Of a DNA stretch of 64,000 nt, positions 29,745-56,031 are shown in pieces. Each line of letters starts with the position of its first letter. Positions within the stretch are counted from its first letter, which is position 1. The notes under the pieces were generated by a model. The model was given only the letters and a program-made list of their open reading frames with translations, did no database searches and was not told where the DNA came from. The position numbers and the translations under genes were made by a program. The DNA is taken from positions 1,798,001 to 1,862,000 of the forward strand of contig KN832870.1 in the NCBI GenBank assembly GCA_000827325.1. Reading direction: 5' to 3'. Source of the stretch: Oidiodendron maius Zn. Its lineage: Eukaryota > Ascomycota > Leotiomycetes > Myxotrichaceae.

Positions 29745-29829
29745 TGTTGGCACTTACGATCGAACTCAGAACCATCTCGGGTCATATGCTCAGCGATGTG
29801 AACGAGATATCATAACCATTAGACCATAC
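29745..29829 (-). tRNA. degenerate, intron-bearing tRNA-like sequence (Val, CAC?)
   Basis: On the minus strand it has an A box (TGGTCTAATGG) and a B-box-like GAGTTCGATCG. It can also form an anticodon stem ATCTCG/CGAGAT, with TTCAC in the loop and about 15 extra bases that would be an intron. The acceptor and T stems do not pair well, so it is probably a decayed tRNA or tRNA-derived remnant. Its 5' end abuts the repeated block at 29811. Confidence 0.35.
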
Positions 29830-30423
29830 GACTTTCGCGACGCGATTAATATTCCGACGCCCGTATCCCGCTATTTAAATCTCCAACTCCCATTTTCCCA
29901 CTGCGCCCGTGAAATTTCCTCTACCACTCCCAACCACCACGACATTATCGTCACCTCTCACATCTAAATCCCCTTTTCGCGAGTTCGCTTTCCCGATCCT
30001 CGTCGTGCGCATCCCTCTCTCGTTATCCCGTATCGTCATGCTCCATGGATCGAGCCGGGCGCTCTATACATAGGGCGATACATAGAGCGCCCGGCTGGAG
30101 AAAAACCGTGTTCTCATTGTCGTTTTACCGTATTCCCAAAACCCGTCGTTCGCGTACGTATATTTTTTTCTGGGATACCTTCAGCCCACGCTACAGAAAC
30201 TAGTAGAATAGTAGAATAAGGATTAAACCTAAGGCAAGTGCCTACTATATATTTTGGTCCTTAAAAATTTTCGATCTCTGGTTTCTGGCGTGCTACATTG
30301 CAGATAGCGAGGTATAACTCATTTCTTAACATTGTTGCTGCTCCTCTGAAATTTTTGCGGATTCTAAGCATCCCAACATTGGCTTTCGGTGCTTAGAGAC
30401 ACGGAGTACAGTACGCGCCGCGG
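29811..30423 (+). repeat. shared upstream block, copy 1 (left end of the island)
   Basis: This 613-bp block recurs, diverged and inverted, at 55453-56031, and partly at 49482-49925. Shared landmarks in order are TAACCATTAGAC, TAATATTCCGAC, the ACGACATT region, TCCCGTAT, a GC-rich hairpin, ACCGTGTTC, GGCAAGTGCCT, and ACGGAGTACAGTACGCGCCGCGG at its end (cited here only as a landmark position near 30401-30423). It ends about 185 bp before the start codon of the DUF3435 gene. It is either the transposon end or the promoter and 5' leader, or both. Confidence 0.8.
30053..30096 (+). promoter_or_regulatory. conserved 15-bp-stem hairpin in block copy 1
   Basis: Two arms of 15 bp (30053-30067 and 30082-30096) are perfect inverted repeats (AGCCGGGCGCTCTAT), separated by 14 bp. 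The matching hairpin at 55775-55806 keeps its pairing despite sequence changes, including compensatory ones. This suggests selection on structure, in RNA or as a recombinase site. Confidence 0.6.
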
Positions 30424-30607
30424 ATCTCAAAGTCAGCGTTGCAGATTTTACTCTCCCTCCTCTGCCCTCCCTCATCCCCAACCCCAATCCTATATCGTCC
30501 CCTATCATCACTGTCGTCGTTATCATTCTTATCACTGTTACCGCTATCATTTTTATTGCTATTATCGCGATCACCGCTATTATCGCGATCATTTTCTGTT
30601 TTACACT

Positions 30608-33027
30608 ATGGATGCCCTCCTGGCTAAACGCGAGGCCCTTAGAGCAAGACGTCTAAACCCAGTGGATGCATTCTCCTATATAGAGAAATTGGCGGCCCCA
30701 TCGGCACGTCAGTACACCGACCAGCTGAGTCTCTGGGAGTTGTAGGTTCCCTCCTTGCCCCGGTTGCTCTACTCTGCTCTGTATACAAGCTTACTCTTGT
30801 CGCTCTAGGTTCACGGCTAGGTTACCTGAGCCCGACGCCGTCCCTGATCTAGATAACCTCCAGCTTTTTGCTTGGCTATGTGCCACGATGAGTAAAGGCA
30901 GGCTAGCTGAGCACTCAGACGTCAAGACGCTATGCTTCAACCTAGAACGGTTTGCGTCTATCTATAACAAGAGCCACCGGTATCATATTTCGAAGGATGA
31001 TATTAAAGAAACTAAGAGCGTATAGTAGCCTAGCCTAGGCGATGTTTTATAACGCTGACTCTTGATAGTATATTAGGACCGATCTAGCCCAAGAACTTGG
31101 ACTTCAGGACCTAGAGCGAGACAAAGAATATGCTGACTGGGAGGATATTAAAATCATGGTCCGGTACATGATAGCTGAGGACCCACACGCCTATAATAAT
31201 AATCGATTCCGAGCCCAGCTTGTACTCATCTACCTGCTTGTCTCTGAGAGTGGAGAGCGGCCAGGGGCTATTGTACGGTCGGAGAGCTATCGCAAGGAAG
31301 AGGTAGCGATATGCTACGGGGTATAGTCTTCTATACCGTATGCTCTTGACTCGGACTGACTAGTGCTCTTAGGATATTGAGCTCTTTTTACGGCCTGCAT
31401 CGAGCTCCGGTGTTTGTAGCCCTCAATTTAAGCTGCAGATAACATATAATAACCGCAAGAACGAGCGTAAGACCAAGGACAAGTATGTTAGGTGAGGGCG
31501 CTAGTGTAACTTTATAGCTAACGAGATCCCTTATAGGCTAGTTGTAACATATTACCAGCGGACCGACCTTGCCCATTGTGTGATCGCGTGGTTTCTTGCT
31601 CTTGCTTTCTTAGATGATGCGTTTGATGGCGGGATAACGTCTCCTTCAGATCTGTTTAATAGACATAACCCAGGGCCGGGCGAGACGCGGATCCACTTTA
31701 AGAGAGATAAGCTACAGATACCAATATTGCGAAGAATGCGCTCTCGCGGCAGCACCGAGCTCTCACCCAACCTTCCATGGAGCTGCAGTGGAGTGACATC
31801 CGAGTCCCAGCGAGTGGTGAGCGAGGCCGGCTTCGAGCAGCGATTTACATTCTATAATGTACGCAGAACAATGGGTAATATGCTAGAGGACGGTAAGTTC
31901 TTCATCCTATCGGCCTGCTTGATCCGTCTAATTGTATGGTAGGCAAGGTCTCGGCGGCCCGGAGGAAGAAGCTCATGGGCCATAGTGGCGAATCAGATAC
32001 CGTCTTCCGGAAATACTACGAATCGAAACACATGCTAGTCGATACAGGGAACATCTTCCGCAAAGAAAAGCCGCGACCAGAGAAGACGGAAGTACTCAGT
32101 ATGCATCTACGGAGGGATCCAGACGTTCCAGACGTGCCAGACTCCCTCTTAAACCAGGCCCTCGATAATGACGAAGAATTAAGGAGCCTAGTCAGGGCTA
32201 GATACGAGTTACAGACTCAACTAGACCAAATAAAGGGCGATCCAGAACAGGGATATAATAAGGTTACAGTGAACGCTGCCCTCGAATACGTGCGTCGAGC
32301 CGTAACAAAGCGGCGGAAGTTTTTGAAAAATAATACAAGAGAAGATTTTCGGAAGGAATATTTCAAGAACCCGGAATATATCCGCTCTCAATATCCCTCT
32401 GTACGTCCGCCCGAGCGGGACTATAGATCTGAACTAGTCAGTGCTCTATACCCAGAAAGAGTATCAGAGGGATCGGCTTTGGTGGCTATCGAGGCAATTA
32501 TCGCACACTGCAGATCTGTAAGAAGAGGTCCAAAAAAAGGGTACCACAAGCTGCCCCATCCCGTTGATTCTTCCCTGCCTACATCTTCAGAAGCGGAGCA
32601 AGACACAAGCATGCCCGTTAAGCGGAAGTTTACTGCAGAAGACACACAGTACCTTGTACATCTGAGAAAAAATCTAAGATGCCCCTGGGCACAAGTTCAA
32701 GCCAAGTTTCCTGGTTGGTCGATATATACACTGCGACGTCATTTTAGAACGGCTGTATCTTCCCCCAGGTTAGACAACGGATTAGAAGCCGGGCAGAAAT
32801 GCCTAGTACAGATTCCTGATTCTTCAGATTGTATAACGAAAAATCATTTACCTGGCACCTTTGAGCAGCAGCAGAACCCGAAAAAGCGACCGCATTCTGC
32901 CTCTAGTTCTCCACCGCCTGCAAAACAGCGTAAGACGGGCCCCGACCGACCCGGCAGTCCAGCAATTATTATTGCAAGAGCAGTTTACAATGTAGAATTA
33001 GGTAGAGAGGAGTGGGTGGATGTATAA
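30608..33027 (+). CDS. DUF3435 tyrosine recombinase (Starship captain-like)
   Basis: Six exons (30608-30741, 30809-31019, 31069-31320, 31373-31482, 31537-31892, 31943-33027) join in phase to 715 residues. Catalytic positions of a tyrosine recombinase are all present: Arg in SGERPGAIVRSES (Arg179), the YNVRRTMGN box (Tyr342/Arg345-346), His in LMGHSGESD (His368) and the nucleophile in FRKYYESKH (Tyr379 or 380). The sequence after it (DTGNIFRKE, RRDPDVP) is typical of DUF3435. A Myb/SANT-like segment (FTAEDTQYLVHLRKNLRCPW) and a basic NLS-like stretch (KKRPHS, KQRKTG) lie near the C-terminus. DUF3435 proteins move Starship transposons and sit at their 5' end facing inward, as here. No stop, frameshift or RIP damage is visible, in contrast to its neighbours. 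Confidence 0.88.
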
Positions 33028-33189
33028 CGACAATTGACCCTGATCTATATTATTATTATTTGTCCTCCGCAATGGCTAAGCCGCGGTACTTCTACACAAT
33101 AATATCCTATATACAAAGGCTAACGCAACCTCTCGGAAGAATCCTCACTGATATGCATACCCCCCTTGTAATACAGGCAAATAATCGGG

Positions 33190-33770
33190 AGGCCTAGGTA
33201 AACTCGTCCAGTGGCAACTCTGAACCAAACTTCCTCCTTCTCCCTGGGATCAGACCACTGTCCCTGCCTCTGGTGTCCAGCCCTGTCTCTCACTCAGTTC
33301 TGTTCCTAGACGGCCACCGGGGGGCTGGTCGCTTCGCTATATGATTGGTCGCGGTTGTAGGGCCCTATCACCCTAGTCTCAAGCTCTTTGGTCGCGTATC
33401 AATGATTTAGTCTTCGTCGTTTCTAGAGGCTCACCCCTCTAGAAAAGTAGGGTTTTGCCCAGGTTCTCGGTTAGACGACCGCTGCTGTGGTATCCGGGAG
33501 CAGAAGCCGGGGCCAAGGTTCTCGGTTAGGCAAAAACCGCTGCTGTGATAACCGGGAGCAGAATCCGGGTTCAAGCTAGGCCTAGGGGGAGCAGTCCTAG
33601 GTAGACCAGCTAGTCATCTTCTGGGAGGCAACAGAAGAGGTGCCTAGAGCTGGATTCGAACCAACATCCCTCACGTACCACATCCTAGCGAGCGGGACGA
33701 GACTCGTTAGTCGCGACGACTTTTGGGACCCGAGGCGCACGACCACTGCGCCATCCAGGCGACCCTGATC
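33190..33770 (-). repeat. tRNA-headed SINE-like repeat
   Basis: On the minus strand it starts with a tRNA-like head (A box TGGCGCAGTGG, B box GGTTCGAATCC, 33645-33770). A body follows that carries a duplicated motif of about 60 bp (GGTTCTCGGTTAG...CCGCTGCTGTG...CCGGGAGCAGAA) at 33462-33515 and 33516-33568. The anticodon and T regions are too irregular for a working tRNA gene. It lies just downstream of the recombinase gene. Confidence 0.4.
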
Positions 33771-34329
33771 TATAATGAAGGAGCAATAATTATAGTAGTG
33801 CGAATTTTATATACCCTAGTTCATTAAGTCTTTACCTTCGATCACAATCTCCCGTTTCCCATGGTTAGGTGAACTTAGCGCGAGCTACTTCAAGATTGCA
33901 TCCCATCGTCCTTTGGACTTCACATCCTTCCTGCTCATCAACTCCCAATATCGAACATCTCCTGTTAGTAAGATCGCGAGTGAAATGAATGTTGTATTAC
34001 AGGAATACTAAACTATAGTTAGTCCTCTCTCCTTCCCGCCACTCTTTTGACTAATCTCGACTCTCCACCACGAAGAGGTTCTGAGTCAAGGACATGCTGT
34101 ACAAGTTTCCCAAAAAGCAGTTCCGGAACTCCTAAGCAATACAACGCTGCTCTTCATTCACTACGAACCGTGATCGGGATTCCCTGCTAAAGGTAATAAT
34201 ATTCTAGTGACTTGGTCTCGGCTCTCCATACTCTATTAGAGATGAAGGTTCGTAGGGAACGCCAAGGTACAGGCGCCGAGTGAGTTCCCCGACCGTACAT
34301 ATGTAGCGGCCCTTGTTTTACAAACAAGA

Positions 34330-34960
34330 ATTAGTAATCCATTCTAGAGGTGGGAAACTTACTGAGGGTCTATCTCAGGACTTGCCTCGTCCCTATCCTC
34401 ATCCTCATCACCCTGAAATCGGCATGCCAGATAGAGCATTCACCGAGCATCTCGCGGATAGCGGGGCCTAGGGGCGATGCATCTGTGCATTCCAGCAATG
34501 CATCCAGCCAGACCTTGGGAACCCAAGGCTCTTTCTCTTGCTCCCTAGCCTCGTCGGACCGCTGATCAGCCTCTTCGTCCCAGAGGGCGTGATTACCGCC
34601 TGTCTCCAACAGGTCGACCAGCTCCTCGTCAACGTCAAACGACTTGACGTTAGCCTTGCCTGTAGATATCTCTGGTGCAACGCTAGTGACATCATCTAGA
34701 GTCTTACTTCTAGCGTCTTACTTATCTGTGCGTGCAGGTCTCGATTTCCCCTCAAGATCACCTGTCTGCGCAAGCCGCAACGTCAGACCACTAGTACGCG
34801 CAGGTGTTCCCGTGAGATCACCCGTCTGCGCTCGGAGATAACCTGTGCGATCTGTCTGCACCTTCACACCACCAGTGCGCGCAGGTGTTCCCGTGAGATC
34901 ACCCGTCTGCGCTCGGAGATAACCTGTGCGATCTGTCTGCGCCTTCACACCACCTGGGCA
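34330..34960 (-). repeat. coding-like remnant with 81-bp tandem repeats
   Basis: Two full 81-bp units (from about 34801 and 34882) and a degenerate third keep a 27-residue frame on the minus strand (AQTGDLTGTPART motif). After a stop the frame continues into acidic, gag-like sequence (LDALLECTDASPLG). It may be the remnant of a retroelement gag gene; this is not certain. Confidence 0.4.
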
Positions 34961-37223
34961 AACCTAGAAGAAAGAGGCTTTACCCTATTTAGCCAGTTCA
35001 ATACTTAATCCATCCAATCAGAGCTCGTCGTTCTCGAGGCTAGTCCTGAAGAGGAAACAGAGGTTGATTCGAAGAAGTCCTCGGATTTGGACGTAACTCA
35101 GTTGTCTTGAGCCCGTAAATTTCTACCCTTATCACCCGTATCTGTTCGTGTATCTACCCGATCCACCTAGCCAATCGTCCCTTCCGTTATATCAAGCCGA
35201 TTCGAATCAATAAGAGCCTTGAGGCTGTTGCTAGGCTTCTCCTTTGTCATGGCACCGGCTATGTTGTGCTTCCTATCGATCCACACTACTTGTGATACCT
35301 CTCTACACTTGTAGGCTTATCAAAGACACATTATATCGATCATTAATCGCTTCTCGTGTATTGTTCTGAGTCGTATAAGGTAGTCATAAAGGGATTTCAA
35401 GACAATGTAGATTGTAAGATCGATTGGTCGATGTAGGATCTGTTGAATCGTCTATTTGATCACTGCTGCGTTATCAAAACCCAAGGATATAGTATATAAC
35501 TCAGCTACTAAGATGCTTCAAGTAACACGCTTGTATTTGACTGAACTCTAGTAGATTATATTAGCTCTGTTGTCCTTATCTACTGTAATAACTATATATC
35601 TGATCTAGGAAGATATGTCGTGGTTGTTCGCAAGAGAAGAGTCTGTAAATATAGCCATATAAAGGGTCTGTAGGTCAAAGGGAACAAAGCATAGTCTTCT
35701 ATCAGGGTGATCAAGTTGCTAGGATAGTTGTTTGTTCAGAAAATCAATCTGTTTATCCGTAATAGTCGAATTAATCACCTGTACAGTAAAAGAGTATCCA
35801 AAAGCTTGCTCTGGCTTTGATACAGTTACAATATATACTCCTTAGGCACGTTAAGCGATATATAATTCGTAATCTGTAGCTAATTCAATCTTTGAAATCT
35901 GATAGGTCTGGCTGATTATAATTGAATTGTCTGTATCATAAAGCTAGATAACTGTACTATTAAAAAGAATAGGTGATATAGTTAGTAACTCCTAGTAAGG
36001 CTTTGAAGAAAAGGTCAAGGCTGCTTCTTCCTTATTAGCTAGGGTAGTATTAGCCAATAGTAATGTATCGATAGTTTTTATACTAATGACTCTATTACTA
36101 TGCTTCTTAATTAAGAGACAAGGATTAAAGGTTAAGTCTTCTATATCAAGCTTCTTAATATAGTGTTTGTAGTATATATTATGCTAGTAAGTGCCTGATT
36201 CAGCTAATCTGTAAAGAGGTTGGATAAGCTATAAAAACTTCGACTGAAGGCCTAGTTTAGTAGGAGGGTTAAGATAAATATCCCTAGTTAGCTGTATCTA
36301 AGACTGTATATAGGCTTGAGAAATGTCCTATAAATACAGCTTTATATTCTAGGTATAAAAAGAAGGTGCAAGACTTAAGAGTATCTGTTGACTAGCCTGC
36401 TAAATAGTTGGTGCTTATATGAGAATCTTATCCTTACCACTATTACTATATCCCTAGACGACTAGTCGGGATTTTTCAAAGGCTTTCTTAGTACTAGCGA
36501 ACTTAATCTTATCTATAAACCTAGTCTTGAAGAGCTGACTATTAGGTAGGATATAGTTGATGATTTTGAAGATACCGTGTTTAAATAAGCTGTTCAATTC
36601 CTTTTAGTAAGACTGTTCGAAAGGTTTACCATTAAGCTAGGTATTGGGATCAGGGATACAGATCGTAATATCAGCTATAAAAGAGTCATTAGAAGGTTGA
36701 GGTTGTTTCTGTAGATAGCCTTAAGGTCTTCATAAAGGCTCTGGTTGGCTAGGTTCTTCTATTATGATAGTATCCTCTAGAATAGTGTTGTCTGGCTGAA
36801 TAGCTGGCTGAATAGCTGCTTCTAGTAATAGGGTTTTATCTATAGGTTTGTCTGGTTGAATTACTTGCTCTGAAGCTAGTGGTTCCTGTAAATACAGCTT
36901 TATAACTGTAGTCCTGAACTGGATAGGTTGTCTATTGATTTCCACTATATATCTGCAAAAATGTTGAGCTGATTTTGACGTTAATGACAGCTTGACGGAT
37001 CTGCTTATGCTCCTTATTTTGATAGGTTTGACAGCCTACCTAATTATTTTGACGCGTTTGATAACCTACCTAAATTTTTGACGCGTTTGACAGCCCGCCT
37101 AAATTTTTGACGCATTTAACAGCCCACTTAATTATTTTGACAGGTTTGACAGGTTTGATAGGTTTGACAGGTTTGATAGGTTTAATATATTATTATTATT
37201 ATTTAAATATATTACTAGCTAAA

Positions 37224-37739
37224 TATTAGAGCGTATGTATTTAAGCATTAGAGCGTATATATTTAAGCATTAGAGTGTGTGTATTTGAGCATTAGAGTGT
37301 GTGTATTCAAGCATTAGAGTGTGTGTATTCGAGTATTAGAGTGTGTGTATTTGAGCATTAGAGTGTGTATATTCAAGCATTAGAGCGTGTGTATTCAAGC
37401 ATTAGAGTGTGTGTATTCGAGCATTAGAGCGTGTGTATTCAAGCATTAGAGCGTGTGTATTCGAGCATTGGAGCGTGTGTATTCGAGCATTGGAGCGTGT
37501 GTATTCGAGCATTGGAGCGTGTATATTCGAGCATTAGAGTGTATATATTCGAGCATTAGAGTGTATATATTCGAGCATTAGAGTGTATGTATTCGAGCAT
37601 TAGAGCGTGTGTATTCGAGCATTAGAGTGTGTGTATTCGAGCATTAGAGCGTGTATATTCGAGTATTAGAGCGTGTGTATTCAAGTATTGGAGCGTGTGT
37701 ATTCGAGCATTAGAGTGTATATATTTAAGTATTAGATTA
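37224..37739. repeat. 22-bp minisatellite, about 23 copies
   Basis: The unit is ATTAGAGCGTGTGTATTCGA plus GC, with mostly C/T and G/A variants between copies. There are no unique spacers, so it is not a CRISPR array. Confidence 0.9.
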
Positions 37740-37771
37740 GAGTATATATATTTAAGGGAATTACTTAGTTA

Positions 37772-38090
37772 TTTTGATGGTATTGACACAATTTTGATAG
37801 CTTACCTAGTGATTTTGACAGTATTGACGCGATTTTGACGGCTCACCTATTGATTTTGACAGCATTGACACGATTTTGACGGCCTACCTAGCGATTTTGA
37901 CAGCATTGATGCGATTTTGACGGCTCGCCTATTGATTTTGACAGTATTGACACGATTTTAACAGCCCACCTAGCGATTTTAACGGCATTGACGCGATTTT
38001 GACGGCTCGCCTATTGATTTTGACGGCATTGACACGATTTTGACGGCCTACCTAGCGATTTTGACAGTATTGATGCAATTTTGACGTCGT
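37772..38090. repeat. 41-bp minisatellite, about 7-8 copies
   Basis: The unit alternates GATTTTGACGGCATTGACAC and GATTTTGACGGCCTACCTAG plus one base. Related, shorter GTTTGACAG units fill 37010-37185. A/G and C/T changes dominate, as expected from RIP or decay. Confidence 0.85.
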
Positions 38091-38912
38091 TAGTACTATA
38101 TAAAAATTCTGAAATTTCCTGACGCTTAACATTTTTGCAGATGTAGCTATCTCTCCTTTAATTATCAAGAGCTTGTATAGCCTGTTCCATACCTTCTTGT
38201 GAATCTTCCAAACTAACACCTCTGATCTAGCTTCCAAATTATGTATATTATCGACTCGTGGGCCATTACGCTATCGTAGAGCGTCTATAACTTGTCGATT
38301 TGCCTATAGCTTCAAGAGTTCTTGGGTAGCTTTCTTGATAGTAGCTGTTCTCTGAGTAATTGAAGGGGAAGGAGGGTCAGATTTAGATAGTCGAGGGTAT
38401 AAGCCAAATACTAGCAAAGTTAGTACTAATCCGTCAGGTCCTATTATATCATTAATTGCCTTGACTAAGAGTTGTAAAAGGATAGCTTTGCCTGTAGTTA
38501 TACCTGCTAATTTCTCTAATATCTCTTTATATACATGGCGTAAAGGTGCATAATATCGTTCGATAATGCCTATTGATTGAGCTGCTTTAGTAGGAACTGC
38601 CTTGGTTCGAATACTCAGGGTCTGAGTGTTCTGTTGGAACTTAGTAGCCGTAAAGTTAGTTCCTGTGTTATAAACTATCAGATCTGGGGGTCCTAAGTAA
38701 GTGTCAATCCAGCAGAACCGAAGTATGTCCTATATATGCTAAGCTGTCATGTTTTCAAGCTATCTGGTAGCTTGGAATCGAGTAGCTTCGTCGATAATAT
38801 AAAGGACTGGTGACCCGTTGATATACATTATATCCGTATATATAGTGTAATTAAAAAAGATATCATTATTATAGAGCGTGAATTTGAATTATCGGGGAGC
38901 CTGGCTATTCCT

Positions 38913-39647
38913 CTAGCAAAGGGAACAGTATTTAGTGAGCTTCTGAATCAAGCTGAGATGCTGAGGATCGTCATGTCCAGCTCTATTAAGGATTGTATAT
39001 AGTCGTTCGATTGTTGGATGTCTGAATCGATGGTGTAGTTGGCGTAATTCAGGCTCTGTAAGGTAGCTGACTGCAGAGTTTTCCCATATAATGAAGGGAT
39101 GTCTGTAATTATGGATAACTGGGTGAGATCCTCCTGGGTAAATGATCTGGTCCATAAGATTGTTATAATACGCTCCGATCTTATCGAGGTCTTGGAGACA
39201 GAGAAGGAAAGGGGTGTCTGCATCAACTATATGGAATGTAGCTGATCCAATAGGCATATGAAGCTTTACAGATCCAATAGAAGTAGTGGCGCCAATTCCA
39301 AAACATACTGAGGTTGATCCAGTGGTTGTAGTATCTAGTATATCGAGATTGAAGGCTTTTGAATAGGCCTGATACTGGTTCTTTCCAGCCGTAGAGACCG
39401 TTGCTGCACCCGTATCGATCATTACTCCGGCGAAGTGGTTGTCTGAGTATCGAGTCAAGTAGGTTGATAGTTGCTTTGAGTCATCAATTCTTTGGGTAGT
39501 GGCGCTGGTCAAAGCGTATTCAAAGGCTTGATTAGCCACTATATCAACTATCTGTTGAGCCTGCTCTGTATTTACTGCCCCACATGTTGTAAAATAGGTC
39601 GTAGAATCAGGATTATTCGTATTCAACTGAGAGTCATCCGTAATCAA
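38913..39647 (-). pseudogene. copia protease and GAG-pre-integrase fragment
   Basis: The longest open piece of the relic, 244 residues. It has the active-site GVMIDTGAATVS, a hydrophobic strand pair around VKLHMPIGSATFHIVDADTP, and the HHCC zinc motif at its end. The integrase would follow directly but is broken by stops. Confidence 0.75.
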
Positions 39648-42173: not shown

Positions 42174-43179
42174 ATGGCATCATCTCTGTACCATCCTGCA
42201 TCATCTGCATCGTCAGCTTCGGTGTCTACACCTGCGTCAGCCTCTGCGTCAGCCTCAATGTCTAAATCTGCCTCAACCCCAGCTTCGTCTGCTTTGATGG
42301 CGTCGCAGGACACCAAGCCCCCAACTATTCAATTCACGACAGTTGAAGCGCTTTTTGAGCTAATTAATCGTGTTCCTGGAGATATTCTGATTGTTACGGG
42401 TATATCAGCTCAGCTCTATATATCTTTACTTGTAATTATACTAATTATTTTTAGAGGTCTCTTATCAAGATTTTGCTATAATTGAGAGAGAGAGAGAGAT
42501 CCGTCGACGCGGGATTCGGTTCCGTCGTTATTATGCAGACTCAAGACTCCTTATTATTACAATCCCGACTGGAATTCACGAAACCCTTCATGAAGAGCTT
42601 AACCAGCAGTATGCATATAAGCTTGTCCCAATGAATTTACAAGGATATTGGAAAACAAAAGGCGCTACTACATTTCGAGCAAGAGAAGGACACCCTGGTG
42701 GCGATGGTGGTGAAGGTGATTCGACTGGTGGGCCTATACCGGATCGCTTAGGACATGAAAAATGGCCTACACTAGTTATTGAAGCTGGGCATTCTGAATC
42801 ATTGCCCGAGCTAAGAGCAGATATGAGATGGTGGTTCTCTACATCAAATCATGATGTCAAGATTGTGATTCTTGCTAAATTTGATGGCGGGCAAAGTTCA
42901 ATTATATTAGAGAAGTGGGAAGAAGAAGAACGAGTACCTCGACAAGGAGCAGCTACAACCCGATGGTCTGCAGTAATGGAGCCAGTGCTACAACAAGCAA
43001 TCACAATTACCTACAATAACACTGGAGACCCTAGAAACACAGCATCATATACTGTCAATGGAGGTGCATTAGTACTGGAGTTTAGACTCCTATTCCTTAG
43101 AGATCCAGGTCTAGGAGAAGGGGATATTGTCTTCAGTATTCCAGAACTGCAATCTTATGCAGTAAACGTCTGGGCATAA
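42174..43179 (+). CDS. E-A-G-x-S-E-S family protein 1 (possible PD-(D/E)XK-type nuclease)
   Basis: Two exons (42174-42399, 42455-43179; 55-nt intron) give 316 residues. The first 50 are a Ala/Ser-rich low-complexity tail. The core reads WPTLVIEAGHSESLPELRAD, then MRWWF, then VKIVILAKFD and IILEKWEE. The same layout appears in the gene at 54379-55254 (FAVEAGASES, AKIWLEHEES, VVTIKIS). The E-x(n)-V-x-I-x-K order is reminiscent of PD-(D/E)XK nuclease folds, but I could not confirm this, and the family has no function I know. It is common as an uncharacterised protein in accessory parts of fungal genomes. The gene appears intact. Confidence 0.75.
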
Positions 43180-43744: not shown

Positions 43745-44689
43745 CCTACGATCTCTGCAGACATCTCGTGACTTCTATTCTTCTACCAAGTAAGATAAAC
43801 TTATCCTCCAGGCATGCCTCTTGAATTGCTTCCGAGTTCTAAACCATATTTCTTTTTACATAGTGAAAACCAGGCCTCGCACACCAGTGACACCCTCACC
43901 TTTTCTCGATGGCAATAAAGTTGAAGAGATGGCGGCAGCTATGGGCGAGCCAGCTACACGAAGCGCCCAACAACAGCTCAAGGAGAATTGTCTTGAACGT
44001 GACAATTTTCAATGCATGTTAACAGGGATCACTGATATCTCAGCCCCAAAACATGGTAGAAGCATAGTGGGCTATTCAGGCCGTACAATACCCTCACATA
44101 TAATTCCCTTTTCACTAGGGTGCTGGGATAACAATGAAGAGGTTTGTTAGACATCTTTCACCATTCCTGCAAATTACTAGAAGTAGTTCTAGAATCAAGA
44201 GATTGCACGGATTTGGACAACCCTTAGAAGGTGCTTCCCCTGTCTTATGCTTCAGCCAAAACACATTAATAACTCTGCGAATTTAATGACATTATCCCAA
44301 GAGGCCCACTCGTCATTTGGTGCATTTGAGCTCGCTTTTGACCCAACTGTATGTCCTTACTCTCTTAAATGACGAGCATAATGTACTAATTTAGATAGGG
44401 AGAACCAAACGAATACGAAATCTTTACCTTTCCTGGGTACCCGACAATACTTGACCTACATATGCCCCAGCCTAATATGTACGGCAAGCGTATTATTAAA
44501 TTTACAAGCTACTCAGACGCAGAACTCCCAAGCAGCGTAGTACTCCAAATTCACGCTACGCTTTCAAAAATATTGCATGCTTCAGGAATGGGCAAACATA
44601 TTGATGATGTCATGAGAGAGCGAGATAGGATCAGAGGCCTTTCAAGCGATGGTAGCACTGACATCTCACGTCTTCTATTTGCGTTTTAG
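43745..44689 (+). pseudogene. HNH nuclease gene, 5'-decayed paralogue
   Basis: Exons 43864-44141, 44193-44348 and 44399-44689 match exons 2-4 of the intact HNH gene at 49966-51288, with the same intron positions. The catalytic motif is present: CMLTG, SHIIPFS (His), NLMTLSQEAHSSF (Asn and His). Exon 1 is broken: only its last 17 or so residues (YDLCRHLVTSILLP against EDLYSVFNNLVTGLAVP) can be read, after an in-frame stop, and it lacks a start. Unless an unseen upstream exon supplies one, it is a pseudogene. Copy B of the dispersed repeat follows 90 bp after its stop. Confidence 0.7.
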
Positions 44690-44781: not shown

Positions 44782-44999
44782 TTGGTTGAAAACCAAAGTT
44801 TTCTTTTGAAAAACTGTTGAGTGCCTGTGATGGACCTCCTAGGCACGAGCAACGCCACATGTCCCTACGGGCGCATGGTAGCTGTCTACAAAACCTACAG
44901 GTTATGCTCCATGTCCCTACGGGCGCATGATGAGAGCTTATTCCTACGGGAGGCTGGCAAAGTCGAACTCTCACCTCTCCGTGGTGCTGGCTAGGAACC
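44782..44999 (+). repeat. CTACGGG dispersed repeat, copy B
   Basis: It follows the stop of the decayed HNH gene and fuses directly into the truncated patatin frame at about 45000. It shares the TTGGTTGAAAACC start and the TGTTGAGTG...GATGGACCTCCTAGGC segment with copy C. Confidence 0.75.
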
Positions 45000-45002
45000 T
45001 TC

Positions 45003-48000: not shown

Positions 48001-48210
48001 TAGCCTAGCTCTGGCTGAGTACCTTCTACTGAAGTCTGCGGTTGAGGCTGACAGCAAGATTTCGATATCTCACACTCAAAGAATTCACGCGGTTTGGAGC
48101 GAGTTCAAGGAGCTGTGTGCCGAAAAGTCCGAAGAATGTCGCCCGCGCGGCTTTCTACGTCTCTCATGTGTGAAAAGCGAAGCGCTCGCCATTCTTGAAA
48201 CACGGTGAAT
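45003..48210 (+). pseudogene. patatin/NB-ARC (NLR-type) gene, broken and 5'-truncated
   Basis: The patatin part starts abruptly after repeat copy B: FVWRANESRKSF, then the Ser nucleophile motif DLIGGTSTGG, an intron (45095-45154) and IIAALLGRLGLTPGEAIAIY. More patatin pieces follow in shifted frames (WEVVRATSSAATYL; FIDAGFGCNNPSNVLL near 45659, with the Asp of the catalytic dyad). The NB-ARC part has P-loop GLGGSGKTEIAVQFA (about 46430), WLLIVDNVD, TSRN and LGYLPLAIDQAASYI, with a frameshift near 46720. A degenerate, TPR-like helical region follows to 48210. Intact fungal proteins of this design act like NLR immune receptors in heterokaryon incompatibility and are known Starship cargo. This copy has at least three frame breaks and no 5' end. 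Confidence 0.8.
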
Positions 48211-48490
48211 GTCTCGATACAAAACCCGGTTCAATTATGGTCTCATGAGTGTTGCGTCATCCGATAAATCAACAAGCTTTTGGATGCCGGAATGACAGAA
48301 GATGCCGAAAAGTGCACTATCAACGTCAAGATGGCCTACCAGAAAGTGGGACTTCGGTGCAACGGCGCTGATTGAGCGTTGCAATTAATGGAGATTTCAA
48401 AGGTTTGTTCCACCTTCTATCAGACCTCCTACCTTAGGTACATGAAATCACCATTGGCTTGCGGATGGCGAAGACGCTAATGCAGGTATA

Positions 48491-48805
48491 GTGCAGAACA
48501 ATGCTTCATCCGCGAGAAGATTCCAGATATTTGTGAAAACTCTGACCAGTAAATCAATCACAATCGAAACAAGACCCTCGGGCACGGTGGATGTGCTGGT
48601 GAGTCGCGCAAGTGCTGCTGCAACGCCTCTTCACTGCCGTAGTGACGGTTGCAAGATATACAGTCGAAATTATGCGCGAGTGACGTTCGTTTGTGCTGCT
48701 GCAGGCTTTCGTCGCTGCCAAAAGATTGATCGCAGAGAATACAATGTTCATAGTGCCAAAGTTTTTACACCAGTGATTCGACTTTTCAGATGTATTCAGA
48801 AGTAA
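48491..48805 (+). pseudogene. ubiquitin-like N-terminal fragment
   Basis: Residues 10-34 of this frame (48518-48592) read QIFVKTLTSKSITIE and then RPSGTVDVL, which matches the first strand, turn and second strand of ubiquitin (QIFVKTLTGKTITLE...PSDTI). The Met before Gln is replaced by Phe, preceded by a short Ser/Arg stretch, so the domain is internal or fused. Similarity stops at a GTGAGT that could be a splice donor (48600). The remaining two thirds of the fold are not found. It lies just after the NLR relic. Confidence 0.55.
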
Positions 48806-49481
48806 TAATGTGAGTCGACAGTCCTATTATGCGTGTGACGAATGGAATGTCGGCATAGCAGCTATGTCGTATAATAATGCCGTCCAATGATCCAAGAGTG
48901 TCTTAAGTGAGGTATCTACAAGATTTCACTGGCGCTGAAAACATCCTATCCTCAAAGGCATGACTGCATCCTCAAAAGACATGACTGAGCCCTGGAATCT
49001 CAATCCTTATAAGTGTACTCATCTTACGAAGACGCTTTGGAAGGTGATGCACTCTGGCACCCAATCTCAACGTTCCCAAGGACACTCAGAATGTAACAGC
49101 AGCTAATATTGTACTCAAGCAAACACGCTGACCGCTTCTCCGTCAACCGGTATAAATTTCCTGCTTTGCGATTCGAATCACGATGTCGAACGTAGTCTCG
49201 AAGATAACACTGTTGTAGTATATTAAGCAGTTAGTGGATATCTATTAAAGCTTGAATAGCTTCAAAGATAGTGCATCAGTTAGGTTAGAATCCCTTACTT
49301 TTATTGGCTAATAACCCTTTGTAATCTGACCCACTATTACATTTATTTTGAGAGGGGGAGTAGTATATATACAGAAAACCGTAATATCAATATCGCGAAT
49401 CATTCCAACTATATATTCCTACACACCAGAACCTATATTCTTGCCTTGCCTCTATACAGAGCAAAAAGTGAACCGGTCTAA
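48806..49481. other. intergenic between ubiquitin-like fragment and block copy 3
   Basis: No coding sequence recognised. The last 100 bp (from about 49380) resemble the flank outside block copy 2 (AAAACCGTAATAT..., ACACACCAGAAC), so the repeat family extends into it. Confidence 0.4.
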
Positions 49482-49496
49482 ATAACCATTAGACTA

Positions 49497-49697
49497 TCCC
49501 CTCGTCCGGTAAGAACTAGCCACGCTAGCAGGGATATTTTGTCCAATAATACGACTCATTTTACCGCTTACTCGTTGCATAACTGACTGAATTAGGAATA
49601 GTTGTTCATAATTTTATGTATTATATTCAGGAGCAAATCATCATACAGGAGTAGGGAAAACCCTACTAGCGTGGCTAGTTCCTACCGGATGAGGGGA
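49497..49697. mobile_element. 201-bp MITE with TA target duplication
   Basis: Terminal inverted repeats of at least 32 bp start TCCCCTCGTCCGGTAAGAAC on the left; the right arm matches with two changes. TA flanks both ends (49495-49496 and 49698-49699), as in Tc1/mariner-type elements. Removing the element and one TA restores the block sequence known from copy 1, so the insertion site is directly confirmed. Confidence 0.85.
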
Positions 49698-49802
49698 TAC
49701 GACTTTCGCGACGCGATTAATATTCCAACCCCTGTATCCCGCTATTTAAGTCCCCAACTCCCGTTTTGCCCTGCCCCGTTAAATTTCTGCTCTAGTCGTT
49801 CC

Positions 49803-49878
49803 GTTACGTAACCCGGTCACCCACCTAGCTGCGCTAACTTAACTTTGCTGTTGCTTGTGTTAAGCCGGGTTACGTAAC
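49803..49878. mobile_element. 76-bp hairpin element (mini-MITE)
   Basis: Perfect 14-bp inverted ends, GTTACGTAACCCGG at 49803 and CCGGGTTACGTAAC at 49865. It is absent from block copies 1 and 2 at the matching place. No coding capacity. Confidence 0.6.
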
Positions 49879-49965
49879 CGAACCACTAACTAGTTATCCG
49901 CTCGTCGTCTCACATAAATCCTCTTTCTGAACACACGCTTTAGTATTTGTCCTACATATCCAACC

Positions 49966-51288
49966 ATGACTCCCGGCAAGCGCAAGCAGACGGACCAGCA
50001 GCCGGAATCTTCTGATTCCCCTCGACGAAAGTCTGCACGTATTGCGAAACGAACTGAAAATTCGGCACCAGGTGAAAGTTCGATTCAACAGCAGTCGCGA
50101 GGCTTATCTGTTTTGTCCACTATCACCGCGGCTTCTGAAGATTGGACGACTTTAGCAGAAGAAGCAAGGAAAAGGATAAGTACATACAAGACCAAGGACC
50201 GTCCTAATGAAAAGAAACTTCAGCCTTCTTTTAATGCTTTCTTAGAATGGCTACCAGAGGGGGGCCGAGAATCTATGGCTAGAGATATTAGTAATGCAAA
50301 GACAGATGAAGATCTCTATTCTGTCTTCAACAATCTAGTCACTGGCCTTGCAGTACCAAGTAAGCCTAGAGTATTATAATAAGTAGACATCACTAATCCT
50401 TAGTATAGTGAAAGCCCGCTCTCGAAAATCTTCGGTTACAAGTTCACCACACCCAAAACGACAAGAAAATGCAGAGATTGTGGCAGGAAGCCTAGATATG
50501 CCAGAAGCTCGCGAAAAAATCTTTCGAGAAAGATGTCGTCGACGTGATAGCCATCGTTGTGTTATAACTGGTAGCATGCACATTGGTCATTGGAATGAGC
50601 TTGGCCGCCCAGAGGTCACAAAAAAAACGAAGGTTGAAGTTGCGCATATAATTCCATTTTCTTATGGATCATGGAATCAATCATCAGTAATATATCCTTA
50701 ATGCCTTAACTGTGTTAATACTAACTAAAGCAAGCAGGCACCAAGTGATACTTCAAAAGCATGGGAAGTGCTTTACCGATGTTTTCCTAATGTTCGAAAG
50801 GCTGGAATGCAAGTTGAAAGCATTAATGACATTTCAAATGGAATATCACTTTCGTCCTACTTGCATAGCGCATTTGGAGATTTCTCTCTTGCTTTTAAGG
50901 CTACTGTTAGTATACCCTAGTAAATTTAGTATTGGTTAAGTTTACTAACAAATGTATGTATTATTAGGAGAGTGACAATGTGTATGAGCTTAAAACTTTT
51001 GCTGAATACCCAGATGATTTGGAAAGTCTTCTCCCAGAGAGTCGCCGAGTTGAATTTAGAAGGGCAGAAGATGCACAAGAGTTAGAGCTCCCAAATGCTG
51101 TCCTTTTAGACTGCCATTATAGACTCGCAGAGATTCTAAATGCATCTGGTATGGCTGAGATAATTGAGAAGCATCATCGAGATTGGGAAGAGATCAAAGG
51201 CAGTGCTGGCGACTCGCTCAAAGAGGATGGTGGAACAGATATTGGGCATATGTTAAGCGTTGCCTTGTGGGAACGTGTTGTTGGTTGA
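49966..51288 (+). CDS. HNH endonuclease-domain protein (HNH_2 type), intact
   Basis: Four exons (49966-50359, 50409-50686, 50738-50905, 50968-51288) join in phase to 386 residues. The N-terminal 130 residues are basic then helical (TPGKRKQTD, PRRKSARIAKR; LQPSFNAFLEWLPEGG). The HNH module has CVITGS, VEVAHIIPFSYGSW (first His), then ISNGISLSSYLHSAFGDFSL (Asn and second His). A C-terminal helical region follows (LDCHYRLAEILNASGMAEII). Fungi carry many such HNH proteins of unknown role, often near transposons. It lies directly behind block copy 3, suggesting its promoter or even its mobility is shared with the DUF3435 gene. A decayed paralogue lies at 43.7-44.7 kb. Confidence 0.85.
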
Positions 51289-51660
51289 AAACCTAAGTTT
51301 TCTTCTAAAAAACTGTTGAGTGTCTGTGATGGACCTCCTAGGCACAAGCAACGCCACATGTCCCTACGGGCGCGTGATAGCTGTCCACAGAACCCACGGG
51401 TTGTACTCCATGTCCCTACGGGCGCATGATGAGAGCTTATTCCTACGGGAGGCTGGCAAAGTCGAACTCCCACCTGTACGTGGTGCCAGCTACGAACTGC
51501 AATTTCAATCTTATCGCAGAGCTAACGGGAGACAATCGCATTTCAATACACTGCGGTTCGCAACAGCAAACTAGTAGACCAAAGGACTGTTAAACTATTA
51601 TCGCAACGGGGTAGGAAACCCATCCGATGTACGATTTACCTGACTGCAAAACAGGCCCTC
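51281..51660 (+). repeat. CTACGGG dispersed repeat, copy C
   Basis: It overlaps the last codons of the HNH gene and runs through its 3' flank. It shares TTGGTTGAAAACC and TGTTGAGTG with copy B and its second half with copy A. The 84-codon open frame at 51320 is part of the repeat. Confidence 0.7.
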
Positions 51661-52989
51661 CAGCACGACAGATCACATACAACTTTCCTCGATGTGGAAT
51701 CGATGCCTCCCTCGAACGATCAGAGCGGCTCCGCCCATCACTCTCCAGTTCCAGACATTGGTGAAAACTCTATCTTAAGTGTTGGTACGAACTCGTTGAC
51801 CTTGGATACCAGTTCATTCCACTGTTGGCGGCACCCATCGGGGGTACCAGTACTCGTCTCGCTTGGAATTATAAGATAGGCCCGGATGTAGTTGTCCTAA
51901 ATCTTGCTGACTTATCCCTTTAGAGAGACTTGTTCCGGAGGAGTATCCGTACTTTATAACTAGCTTACATCTGCCTGTACCGAACTGCATATCGCCTTAT
52001 CGTCCTTATCCTTTGCATGCGCGCGGAGCTTCTTCAAGAGTGTCTTGGCATCCTTCGGCTTCGTCGTGCCTACTGCAGGGCATTGCGAAGGAACAGCTTC
52101 TTACAACGTCTGCCTATGCAAAGTCTTCTACCAAAACTGACTGTCGCGATGGAAGAGACTGCCTGCGCCTATCGACCGTAAGGGAACAGGTTGCGGGGCG
52201 AACAGCGGTTGTTTCTGCTGTCGTCTGGCTGGCCGTGAGAGTCTTTGGTGGTTGTAGCTGTAGATGCTGCCCACCATAATTATGATGTGCCTAAACTCGC
52301 GCTATATGATTAGTGGATAGGTTGCCGAGTGGAGCCTTGATGCTGACCTTTAATTCGTATATCATCGTCTTTGCTCGGTAAGAAGGCCTGTGGACTAGGA
52401 TTTCCCAGAGTTGACGGAGCGGGACGTGGATACCGGCCTCTTCACTGTCATCGATAAATGGGTATTAGCTTTTCGGTATTCTGATTCTCGGTGTTCTGTG
52501 AGCCCATACTCTGTAAATTTAGTGGCTAGTTAATAAAAAATATTCCCAACACCCTGAAATGGAATGGAGGCTTAATAAGTTCAACCACCGGAGGGCGAAA
52601 TACTGATTAATCTATGACAGTTGGAAAAGCTAGGCTGGCAAGCAGGTTCACAACTGCACTTACTTCCGTACATTCATTTAACCAAGGTCGCTCCGCTTCA
52701 CTTTTCTTTATTCTTTAAATAACTTTGCCGAAGACACCTAGATGCAAGTCACCTAATACCCTATCAAAGGCGAGGGTAGCAAGGAATCTAGTAAATCATC
52801 GAATTCTCCTCCATCCTCGCCCCCTCACATTCTCCTCCGCGGCCTTCCAGATCTCCTCAACCACCTCGCGATCTCGCCACCGTCTCGCCGCGGCCACAGC
52901 CGCAATCAACCTCGTTACCTCAATACATCTGCACTCTTCTTCGCCTAAAGCACCACGTCCCTAGACAATAATAAAAGATTACAAAAGCG
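51661..52989. other. intergenic, no gene recognised
   Basis: Short open frames (51694, 52013, 52725) lack domains and consistent splice sites. The last 250 bp are Pro/Ser-codon and CT-rich and may be a 5' leader of the DEDDh gene. Confidence 0.35.
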
Positions 52990-53814
52990 ATGTCGAAGAT
53001 TTACTTCCCACAAAATGGGTTAGAGCAGCTACAGTCAATTTTCGGCCTTCAAAATAGTCCTATATGGGATGCTGTCATCGTCTCTTTCGACCTCGAGCTG
53101 TTAAAACCCGGAGCACCTGATATCTCACAGATGGGCGTTTCAATATTGGATACTCGTTGCCTCTCTTTAGATATATCCAAATCAACAGGATCGTTACTTA
53201 CACGACACTTCGTTATTGGGGGACAAAAGAGAGGTGGACAGAAGAGATTCCGAAGAGAGCGAATGAAGTTTTACTTTGGGACTTCAGAGTACCGTACTGA
53301 CGATAGAGTAAATGAAGTTATTTTGAAGCAACTCTATATACAAGATGAGATTAAAGGCCAAGAATACCGCAAGATTATCCTCGTGGGCCATGGACTTCGG
53401 AGTGATCTCGCAGTCCTTCAAAAGCGAGGCATTTTCATTCAAGAGATTCCTACTATAATCGCTAAGTTTGATACAACATATATTGCTACGGAAGTCTTGG
53501 GCATCAAGTCCAGCCTTTATCACTTACTAAAAATACTCGACTGCCCTCATGAAAACATGCATATCGCTGGAAATGATGCAAATTACACCCTGCGAGCTTT
53601 GTTACTATTGACCTACTACGGGCTACGACCATTAGTTTCTTGTCTGGACGCAATTAAGTATTTGAAATACTTCAAGTATTTAGGGCTAGAGCGTCTGCCC
53701 GATATAACAGAGAGAAACGCAATGATACGGGCATCGAAACCTGTATGGCGACGCGAAGACTTTACCTTGATTGCTCTAGATAGTGGAAGCATTTCATTCC
53801 TCGTTGACACTTGA
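52990..53814 (+). CDS. DEDDh 3'-5' exonuclease-like protein (Gfd2/YDR514C-like)
   Basis: A single exon of 274 residues. The RNase H-fold acidic residues are in order: SFDLELL (Asp34, Glu36), ILVGHGLRSDLAVL (Asp139), and HIAGNDANYTL (His191, Asp196), giving a complete D-E-D-Dh set. The spacing, the FDTTYIA strand and the SLYHLLKILDCPHENMHIAG segment match the Gfd2/YDR514C-like nuclease domain found in many fungal proteins. Substrate unknown. The protein is near the minimal domain size, without extra domains. A relic of the Stc1-like gene follows within 120 bp. Confidence 0.82.
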   Translation: MSKIYFPQNGLEQLQSIFGLQNSPIWDAVIVSFDLELLKPGAPDISQMGVSILDTRCLSLDISKSTGSLLTRHFVIGGQKRGGQKRFRRERMKFYFGTSEYRTDDRVNEVILKQLYIQDEIKGQEYRKIILVGHGLRSDLAVLQKRGIFIQEIPTIIAKFDTTYIATEVLGIKSSLYHLLKILDCPHENMHIAGNDANYTLRALLLLTYYGLRPLVSCLDAIKYLKYFKYLGLERLPDITERNAMIRASKPVWRREDFTLIALDSGSISFLVDT

Positions 53815-54055: not shown

Positions 54056-54159
54056 ATCTTACCCAAGGCTTATCATGGTAACCAAAAATTGGATACCTAG
54101 TACGGCGAAACGTGATTCTGGTACTGCATTGTGAGGCTTAGTCTCGCACAGGAATTGTT

Positions 54160-54371
54160 TAGTCCGTTGGTTTCACTAGGACAATGTCCATAGTTACTTA
54201 TCCCCATCACCGCGTAAAGGTGGACTAATGATAGGGTGCAGGAATCGAACCTGCAACGCCTGCTCTCTAGCAAAGGACGGAAAACCATGCGTCCGTAGCG
54301 GCATGGAACATACCCCGTATGGTATGCTGGTGCTCATCGCGCTATGCGCCCGTAGGGACAAGGAGCATAGG
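54160..54371 (-). repeat. tRNA-derived SINE-like repeat, copy 1
   Basis: It is a nearly identical inverted copy of 57747-57963. On the minus strand it has a perfect T-arm (GCAGGTTCGATTCCTGC, including a B box) and a CTCCTTGTCCCTACGGGCGC head that links it to the CTACGGG repeat family. The acceptor and D arms are not tRNA-like enough for a working gene. Confidence 0.7.
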
Positions 54372-54378
54372 CCATTAG

Positions 54379-55254
54379 CTAGCTCTCCACTGCTGGGGAG
54401 GGGATTTTAAAACCCATATCCAGCCATATCCGTCTAGCAATCTCACCTAATTCCCGTTTGGAGAGGATTAAGTCCTTCTCTGCCGTTCCTTTCCGTGGTT
54501 CTCGCTCAAATAGTTTCTTAAAAGAGAGGGAAATTGTTTTGCTAGCCACTGGTCGTTCTTGTGCTAGTGTTACACGCACCATCTGAACCTCAGAAGCTCT
54601 CCGCGGGTGTTCTGCTCGTGTATCCTTCTCCTGTGTTGTATTCGTCCATACACTGAAGAAAATCTCTTCTCGTACACGAGAAATCTTAATCGTGACGACT
54701 TGTGCCACGTGCGACTCCTCATGCTCAAGCCATATCTTAGCATTTAGTGCTAGTGCTCTCGGCGACTCTGATGCCCCAGCCTCTACGGCGAATGTAATGT
54801 ATCTTGGACCACTCAGGGTCCAGGATTCATCAGGCGATTTTCTGACGTTGTTCATCTCTACCGCCGGCCCTCCTTGTGTGACAAGTTCATCCGCGCATTT
54901 CATAGCCTCAAGTTTTCGATCTATTAGCCGGCCAAACAAGCGACTCGCTCTTTCATGTGGGTAGCCAGGCATCGTGATAAACAGTGCTTGCCGGTCTTCA
55001 AGATATAATATCTTGCCGTGTCCAGGAAGTAATGGTTCGTCGTCATCGTTGTCGTCGTAGTCGTCGAAGTTAATGAAGCTCGAGGCGGGGAATCCCATAA
55101 TGAGAATAGTGTAATCACAAAGTGAATCACGATCCGGGGCAATATAGAAGTCGCGTATAGCTTGCCTTAGGTCCGTTAAATTTGTGAAGTGAATCGTTTC
55201 TTCCACATCTAGTAGCCCTTTAAGATCAACGTTAGATCCTATAAGGGATTCCAT
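54379..55254 (-). CDS. E-A-G-x-S-E-S family protein 2 (possible PD-(D/E)XK-type nuclease)
   Basis: A single exon of 291 residues. The core reads RYITFAVEAGASESPRALAL, AKIWLEHEESHVAQVVTIKI and IFFSVWTN, parallel to gene 1 at 42174-43179. The C-terminus has helices ending ELGEIARRIWLDMGFKI. An acidic loop (DDYDDNDDDE) occurs near residue 66. It is intact, and starts about 200 bp inside block copy 2, as the DUF3435 gene does behind copy 1. Function unknown; the nuclease-like reading rests only on motif order. Confidence 0.72.
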   Translation of the reverse strand: MESLIGSNVDLKGLLDVEETIHFTNLTDLRQAIRDFYIAPDRDSLCDYTILIMGFPASSFINFDDYDDNDDDEPLLPGHGKILYLEDRQALFITMPGYPHERASRLFGRLIDRKLEAMKCADELVTQGGPAVEMNNVRKSPDESWTLSGPRYITFAVEAGASESPRALALNAKIWLEHEESHVAQVVTIKISRVREEIFFSVWTNTTQEKDTRAEHPRRASEVQMVRVTLAQERPVASKTISLSFKKLFEREPRKGTAEKDLILSKRELGEIARRIWLDMGFKIPSPAVES

Positions 55255-55452
55255 AGTGTTGATAGTGATATTGTCCTGAAGTTAACTAATAGCCCTATAT
55301 GATATATCATATATAGAGGAAAGATATTCAAGAGACTTAAACTTCTAACTATCTTAATACTCTATATATCTAAACAAACCTATTACTGATGCTTTCATCT
55401 CAGTTACGTCATACCATATGACGTTAATAGGGGCATTCTATGGCCTCGAGGC

Positions 55453-56031
55453 CCGCGGCGCGTACTGTACTCCGTGTCTTCACTGAAAGCTGATGTTGGA
55501 TATTTAGAATACGCAAAAATTTCGAAGGAGCAGCAACGGTACATAGAAATGAGCCACGCCTCGCCATCCGTAGTATAGCATACTAGAAACCAGAGATAAA
55601 AATATTTGAGAACCCAAATATATAGCAGGCACTTGCCTTGGTTTAAACCTCATTCTCGTCGTTGTAGTGCAGGCTAAGGGTATTCCGGGAAAAAATATAC
55701 CTACACGAAAGACGGGATTTGGGAATACAGTAAAACAACGATGAAGGAACACGGTTTTTTCTAAAGGTATGTCTAGGCGGGCACTCTACGCGTAGAGCGC
55801 CCGCCTCGACCTGCCGAGGATAATCATACGGGATGGCGAGAGGGGGATGTGCACCACGAGGATCGGAAAAGCGATCTCGCGAAAGGAGGATTTAGATGTG
55901 TGAGAGAAAATGTCGTGGTGGTTAGAAAAGTTTAACAGGGCCGGGGAAAACGGAAGTTGGGGACTTATATAGCAGGATATGGGGTCGGAATATTACTCGC
56001 GTTGCTTCAGTTGTATGGTCTAATGGTTATT
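55453..56031 (-). repeat. shared upstream block, copy 2 (right end of the island, inverted)
   Basis: Read on the minus strand it aligns with copy 1 (29811-30423) throughout, with many substitutions and small gaps. It includes the tRNA-like edge TAACCATTAGACCATAC, ACCACCACGACATT, the hairpin, CCGTGTTC, GGCAAGTGCCT and the final CGGAGTACAGTACGCGCC. It ends about 200 bp before the ATG of the gene at 54379-55254. Confidence 0.8.
55775..55806 (-). promoter_or_regulatory. conserved hairpin in block copy 2
   Basis: Two 16-nt arms meet with no loop bases left over in the DNA palindrome (55775-55790 and 55791-55806). The one mismatch becomes a G-U wobble when read on the minus strand, the sense of the downstream gene. 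It corresponds to 30053-30096 in copy 1. Confidence 0.6.

Follow-up and report, generated by a model that had tools for sequence, protein, structure and literature searches.

Starships are transposons of Pezizomycotina that carry a DUF3435 tyrosine recombinase, the 'captain'. Sites used by tyrosine recombinases have an arm-spacer-arm layout, and in bacteria and archaea, tRNA genes serve integrative elements as points of attachment. As described in PMC12153272, Starships have 5′ captains, direct repeats, inverted ends, and sizes of ∼20–700 kb. In A. fumigatus, the same paper gives direct repeats of 2–12 bp for 19 of 20 elements and terminal inverted repeats for 18 of 20; repeats longer than 6 bp are generally tied to 5S rDNA targets, with Tardis as the exception (PMC12153272). 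Another kind of mobile sequence, the mimp miniature transposons, is found in the promoters of Fusarium SIX genes (PMC11620798). Our literature search, which covered the papers of one open-access library, found nothing that links Starships with tRNA targets, the one paper with both Starship captains and tRNA naming the latter only as part of an enzyme name; Cryptons may have such targets.

We analyzed a window of 64,000 nucleotides from Oidiodendron maius Zn (contig C1, positions 1798001–1862000; the genome comprises 45.9 Mb on 58 contigs). Short GT-AG introns and DUF3435 proteins suggest a filamentous fungus. All comparisons were made within this one genome, and genome-wide copy counts are lower bounds. 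Labels such as L054 and L053 denote fetched loci elsewhere in the genome, and C1, C3, C7, and C9 are contigs. Judged from its sequence, an upstream block in this window appears to be the front end, promoter included, of a fungal mobile-element family that would insert at one spot of tRNA genes.

An upstream block before three unrelated genes

The sequence-only reading of this region described three copies of one block (A, B, and C), homologous in order and detail and each pointing toward a different gene. Blocks and genes are located as follows:

29811..30423 (+): block A, which would form the proposed element's left end and presumably serves the DUF3435 gene as promoter and leader
30608..33027 (+): gene for a DUF3435 (PF11917) tyrosine recombinase or 'captain', with PF11917 over 31370–32376
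49495..49699: MITE-like insert with 39-bp inverted ends, within block B
49697..49923 (+): remainder of block B, with 98 bp that are 88% identical to A, a TATA-like box, and a short weak tail
49793–49888: second palindromic insert of block B
49966..51288 (+): HNH gene behind block B (Pfam HNH_2 at E 0.0023, below the cut-off)
54382..55254 (−): single-exon gene behind block C, encoding the E-A-G-x-S-E-S protein
55305..55413 (−): this gene's own proximal leader, in common with a block-less paralog at C1:757 kb
55453..56031 (−): block C, with the TATA-like box CTATATAAG and a hairpin at 55771–55810

The described homology is strong for A and C, which align at 75.6% over 615 columns (E 4.7e-114; a looser alignment reaches 30435 and 55441, respectively). 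Copy B is homologous only in part, because it is interrupted by the two palindromic inserts: its first 13 bases are kept and are followed by an insert, 98 bp, a palindromic stretch, and a weak tail. It aligns to A at 88% over 100 columns (E 2.8e-28), and the tail at 67% over 49 columns (E 0.08). The distances from block end to start codon agreed with the earlier description (185 bp to the ATG at 30608, 41 bp to that at 49966, and 199 bp to that at 55254), and the three genes are indeed unrelated, with no match among their proteins (tblastn, E 1e-3). Block A precedes a mobility enzyme; B and C precede unrelated nuclease-like genes.

Searching the genome with the DNA of block A returned only the places of A, B, and C and a self-match of A's hairpin, i.e., three clear copies, all within 26 kb. 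A diverged fourth copy at C9:1086.7 kb was reached indirectly. After its core, the alignment scores of this copy are 43.8 against A and 44.6 against C; the highest scores in the two sets of 300 shuffles were 17.8 and 18.5, respectively. A model built on the first 167 block positions did not match it, and when the C9 sequence was searched against the genome, only C9 and C7 came up and not A, B, or C. Beyond its TATA, the left copy on C9 bore no resemblance to the block (the scores were reached by 33 and 116 of 300 shuffles). The copy overlaps minus-strand frames and adjoins a transcription-factor gene (Pfam Fungal_trans_2). No plus-strand frame of at least 80 codons starts at ∼1400–2112 of L053, within ∼0.7 kb behind it, so that a gene follows three of the four block copies. 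The sequence-only reading had further proposed a family of elements with common 5′ ends and swapped cargo. That different genes have a common left end in front of them is confirmed, and this end is bounded by an apparent recombination point (the tRNA A-box core described below) beside a DUF3435 gene, a setting that such a family would require; the low copy number, three clustered copies and a diverged one, speaks against wide mobility. No right end of a B or C unit was recognizable in the window, and these units may therefore be fragments.

Both A and C carry a TATA-like box ∼45 bp after the core (CTATTTAAA at ∼29871 in A and CTATATAAG in C). B has such a box too, which the insert has moved farther away from the core. 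Hairpins are located at matching places in A (30050–30099, z −4.08) and C (z −5.00), and their arms differ by paired changes, as judged by eye from these two sequences; the C9 equivalent is weak (z −1.54). The block may be a promoter plus leader as well, and the hairpin may act in RNA or as a recombinase-binding palindrome. With its TATA-like box, its leader, and a hairpin that A and C have in common, the block would probably also drive whichever gene follows it.

The DUF3435 gene is an open frame with five GT-AG introns over 30608–33027, as found by a mechanical splice search that takes any GT-AG path and yields predicted exon borders. Its ATG is located 796 bp inside the left core and the gene points inward. 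Candidate catalytic residues were picked by eye (YNVRR and MGH...FRKYY). When four stretches of the recombinase were compared with 11 other DUF3435 regions of the genome, one stretch was matched, in two regions, and the YNVRR and MGH...FRKYY boxes were unmatched. Neither the block nor module M (see below) was present at 12 other DUF3435 places, for each of which 8–10 kb were fetched (at C29, next to a contig end, only ∼0.3 kb upstream). A match between A's leader and L027 (62%, E 2e-4) was rejected: it falls outside the block, on the opposite strand, and consists of pyrimidine-rich sequence. Behind the recombinase gene lies a tRNA-Glu(CTC)-like gene with an intron (33639–33760, −; Rfam 34.9 bits), inside the proposed element.

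The exons of the HNH gene (49966–50358, 50408–50686, 50738–50905, and 50968–51285) follow from its frame and from a paralog on contig C3, which has 73% DNA identity over 1224 columns with homology starting at 49951; the mechanical splice search prefers a shorter product ending at 50920. No block lies upstream of its relatives at the two that were fetched of five other matches. The gene behind block C, for which no Pfam or NCBIfam family was found, has 13 other matches in the genome, six of them near full length with 36–55% identity, and the block is absent upstream of the best 6 of the 13. Its closest paralog, at C1:757 kb, is 55% identical and has the same proximal leader (two 49-bp pieces at 71–76%, with E 0.002 and 8e-4) without the block. 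Therefore, the block was probably joined to the C gene secondarily. Two inverted repeats are found in this part of the window. A 225-bp pair (54154–54372 and 57746–57970, 94% alike) flanks the C unit. The ∼145-bp pair R (52349–52494 and 56208–56348, 77%; no third copy was found in the genome) has one copy upstream of a DEDDh exonuclease-like gene (52990–53814) and the other upstream of C.

The left border and its tRNA-like sequences

The borders of the blocks are made up of the following features:

29745..29832 (−): degenerate sequence resembling a tRNA, at the proposed element's left end, with the core as its A-box/D-arm
29812..29825 (+): left core copy ATAACCATTAGACC
49361..49481 (+): proposed right end of the element, with S at 49361–49407 and M at 49416–49481, ending GGTCTAA
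49482..49495 (+): right core copy ATAACCATTAGACT
56015..56096 (−): core and M upstream of block C, a second copy of the right end

The exact 14-base core, ATAACCATTAGACY, occurs at four places in the genome (A, B, C, and on contig C7), three of them in the window. With zero to one mismatch it is at chance level (33 matches versus 36 for the reversed control), and the window holds no further copies beyond chance (six with at most two mismatches, three of them exact, versus 4.4 expected). B and C share ∼80 bp further to the left (49416–49497 and 56096–56015, 80.5%), which are missing in A, as well as S, a piece of 47 bp whose copy beside C is inverted. The left flank of A shows no similarity to M (262 of 300 shuffles attain the score). 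Though dissimilar, the two meet the block at an identical position.

M ends at the same point in five places (B, C, C7, C3, and C9). The end on C9, which stands outside the model R1 of M built from B, C, C7, and C3, scores 49 bits with that model. Allowing up to three mismatches, GGTCTAAATAACCATTAGACY occurs at six places versus none for the reversed pattern; the sixth (C6) is doubtful, with only 14.7 bits in the M model. The five M junctions read roughly GGTCTAA-ATRACCR-TTAGACY, i.e., inverted arms around a 7-bp spacer. The last 7 bases of M (GGTCTAA in B, C, and C7, GGTGTAA in C3, GATCTAA in C9) are the exact or near inverted complement of the tRNA sequence TTAGACY across the spacer, which itself is ATAACCA, ATAACCG, or ATGACCG. 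MITE-like inserts with similar CCTCGTC-type inverted ends, recognized by eye, lie beside two M copies (L037 1620–1836 and 49495–49699).

We take the reversed core, TGGTCTAATGGTTAT, to be the A-box and D-loop of a tRNA. On contig C9, an intact tRNA-Asp (GTC) identified by ARAGORN (L054 3228–3311) carries TGGTCTAACGGTCAT and is above the Rfam gathering cut-off, with 43.8 bits. The A site scores 15.6 bits with RF00005, below the gathering cut-off of 29 (E 0.93 for 4227 families and 201 bp). Nothing else in the 4227 Rfam families matched at E up to 10, and the match lies at the expected place and on the expected strand. ARAGORN calls the A site only at a lowered threshold, and the call has little weight because this threshold also fires on two of seven other sequences, one of which is the real tRNA-Asp. 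The left flank of A has no plain similarity to the 3′ part of tRNA-Asp (143 of 300 shuffles attain the score), so that its tRNA-like sequence would be another kind of tRNA or badly decayed.

The 19 bases after M on contig C3, 7 of them acceptor stem, match the 5′ part of the C9 tRNA-Asp exactly, and the M on C9 is likewise followed by tRNA-Asp 5′ sequence. As a candidate tRNA or other Rfam RNA, M itself was rejected: no tRNA was found by focused searches in C, C7, and C9 (the search of C gave two matches far under their cut-offs), within the whole loci of C7, C9, and C3, or in the M of B, there at the gathering threshold only. Since tRNA-Asp sequence follows M on C3 and C9 and M is not itself recognized as a tRNA, M is, on these matches, joined to the 5′ parts of different tRNA-like genes. 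A U2 snRNA-like match (L050 2802–2967, −; 47.4 bits, cut-off 46) is located near the M and HNH paralog on C3.

The C9 locus has the intact tRNA-Asp on the left and an M end on the right, in the same orientation and 3.7 kb apart, with an 86-bp direct repeat (84%) and the spacer ATGACCG at both ends. A and B show the same layout, with the tRNA-like sequence on the left at A, M on the right at B, and ATAACCA as the spacer of both. That each of the two pairs has a spacer of its own is the strongest argument for taking 29812–49494 as one element. No DUF3435 match was found inside the C9 pair, which would thus be a relic or a dependent unit. A candidate left partner exists for only two of the five M ends (the proposed element and C9). 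For the partnerless ends, ARAGORN found no tRNA within 14.4 kb (C7), within 5 kb (C3), or up to the end of the window (C). One A-box-like motif with two mismatches (L039 6709–6723) lies in an apparent helicase frame.

A proposed element and its alternatives

Our preferred reading, in which we place equal amounts of trust and doubt, is that 29812–49494 represents one 19.7-kb Starship-like element (E1) in a tRNA-like gene, with B and C as sister left ends. E1 would have entered this gene at its A-box/D-arm. Block A would form its left end, with the inward-pointing DUF3435 gene starting 0.8 kb further in; S-M would form its right end, and the putatively tRNA-derived repeat ATAACCATTAGAC would stand at both ends (29812 and 49482). 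The inverted 7-bp arms, GGTCTAA and TTAGACC, would serve as binding sites of the recombinase, with strand exchange taking place in the 7-bp spacer. We infer that E1 moved as a unit and that its DUF3435 enzyme acts on such arm-spacer-arm sites. Because they are located just past an M end, blocks B and C look like the left ends of further elements. These would be neighbors of the same family that abut right ends and whose first gene is no recombinase, having inserted, in tandem or by accretion, at one shared attachment sequence. That the B and C units are mobilized in trans is a guess.

As in a Starship, a DUF3435 gene stands at the 5′ end of E1 and points inward, its position as the first gene depending on the inferred border. 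E1 also contains cargo, namely an NTPase-like frame under Pfam's cut-off (within 29812–49494) and relatives of both genes found behind the other blocks:

42472..43176 (+): distant relative of the C gene (tblastn 24%)
43863..44677 (+): distant relative of B's HNH gene (tblastn 32–38%)

Behind the two HNH genes, 44779–44998 and 51278–51497 are 91% alike, whereas the proteins are merely 32–38% alike. This common 3′ end (∼210 bp) was dropped as an element end because a neighboring, partly overlapping stretch is a dispersed repeat with 25 matches in all.

The candidate direct repeats ATAACCATTAGAC have four exact places in the genome, and the borders of E1 are themselves inferred from these repeats. 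Its candidate terminal inverted repeats are TTAGACC on the left, which is also tRNA sequence, and GGTCTAA on the right. The reading of E1 as an element is supported by the core being an A-box, the tRNA-like sequence at A, the presence of M at five places, the common joining point of M and the unlike flank of A, the C9 layout, the tRNA-Asp sequence behind M on C3, the inward DUF3435 gene at the left end, and the hairpin with paired changes in A and C. It is weakened by the A tRNA scoring under the Rfam cut-off, the A flank unlike the tRNA-Asp 3′ part, the core matches with one mismatch being at chance, the inverted S beside C, the three M ends with no left partner in the sequence covered, the C9 pair with no DUF3435 match inside it and no block similarity past its TATA, the failure of Rfam to see M as a tRNA, and the other DUF3435 places with neither block nor M. 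The homology of A and B also argues against it, since it extends well beyond the core and exceeds reported Starship repeat lengths. We regard as doubtful the wider idea of a DUF3435 clade that uses the tRNA A-box as a loxP-like site, with tandem accretion, captain-less units mobilized in trans, and a left end serving as a portable promoter.

The clustering of the three clear copies would also be expected if an ancient promoter/leader had been duplicated locally before the HNH and E-A-G-x-S-E-S genes, the borders being ordinary breakpoints without any movement. In agreement with such promoter capture, local repeats are confined to the region (the R and S pairs, in addition to the 225-bp inverted pair), the block contains a TATA-like box, and the C-gene paralog has the same proximal leader and no block. 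However, capture leaves unexplained why the same tRNA A-box break occurs in A, B, C, C3, C7, and C9 and why the C9 layout matches. We consider it unlikely.

In a further alternative, M, core, and block are the LTR of a retrotransposon, present as solo or broken copies, with its promoter driving the three genes. The C9 copies, with their 86-bp direct repeat, flank an open frame, which by eye we take to resemble a Copia RNase H, and the TATA-like box and the purine-rich GAGAGGGGGAG immediately left of S in B would fit an LTR as well. But the three L054/L053 frames between the C9 repeats contain no Pfam domain at E 0.1, TG..CA ends were not recognized by eye, and the copies are few. To our knowledge, a tRNA A-box at the edge is not a feature of LTRs, and we judge this origin improbable. 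Least probable by our estimate is a small tRNA-derived, SINE-like repeat (M-core) lying beside the blocks by chance: a tRNA-like A-box and variable sequence beyond it at C3, C7, and C9 would suit it, but in B and C the boundary between M-core and block falls on one and the same base, A has the same border with a different tRNA-like sequence, and the copies are few.

Taken together, the locus is real and unusual, and a tRNA-targeting Starship-like element with sister left ends is the best reading of it, one that could equally well prove right or wrong.

Comparison with known systems

If true, this reading would be a case of convergence, in which a tyrosine-recombinase element of a eukaryote attaches at tRNA genes as bacterial islands do. 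It would also show a way for Starship-type elements to spread, as captain-plus-satellite arrays. One mobile left end would put several nuclease-like genes under one control, and the recognizable site would make the binding arms and the crossover of the enzyme directly testable.

Like Starships, E1 has an inward 5′ DUF3435 gene, a size of ∼20 kb, other genes, and candidates for direct repeats and short inverted ends; unlike in Starships, its target would be a tRNA A-box, and the same left end is also found before non-recombinase genes. With the integrative elements in tRNA genes it would have in common the tyrosine recombinase, a crossover in the tRNA gene, an end that restores part of the tRNA, and tandem arrays. 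It differs from them in its eukaryotic DUF3435 enzyme and in its border on the A-box side, and no homology is claimed. The mimp elements are comparable in that one repeated mobile sequence is located upstream of several different genes. In contrast to these miniature inverted-repeat elements, the sequence described here is ∼600 bp long, occurs in three to four copies, and has a tRNA border.
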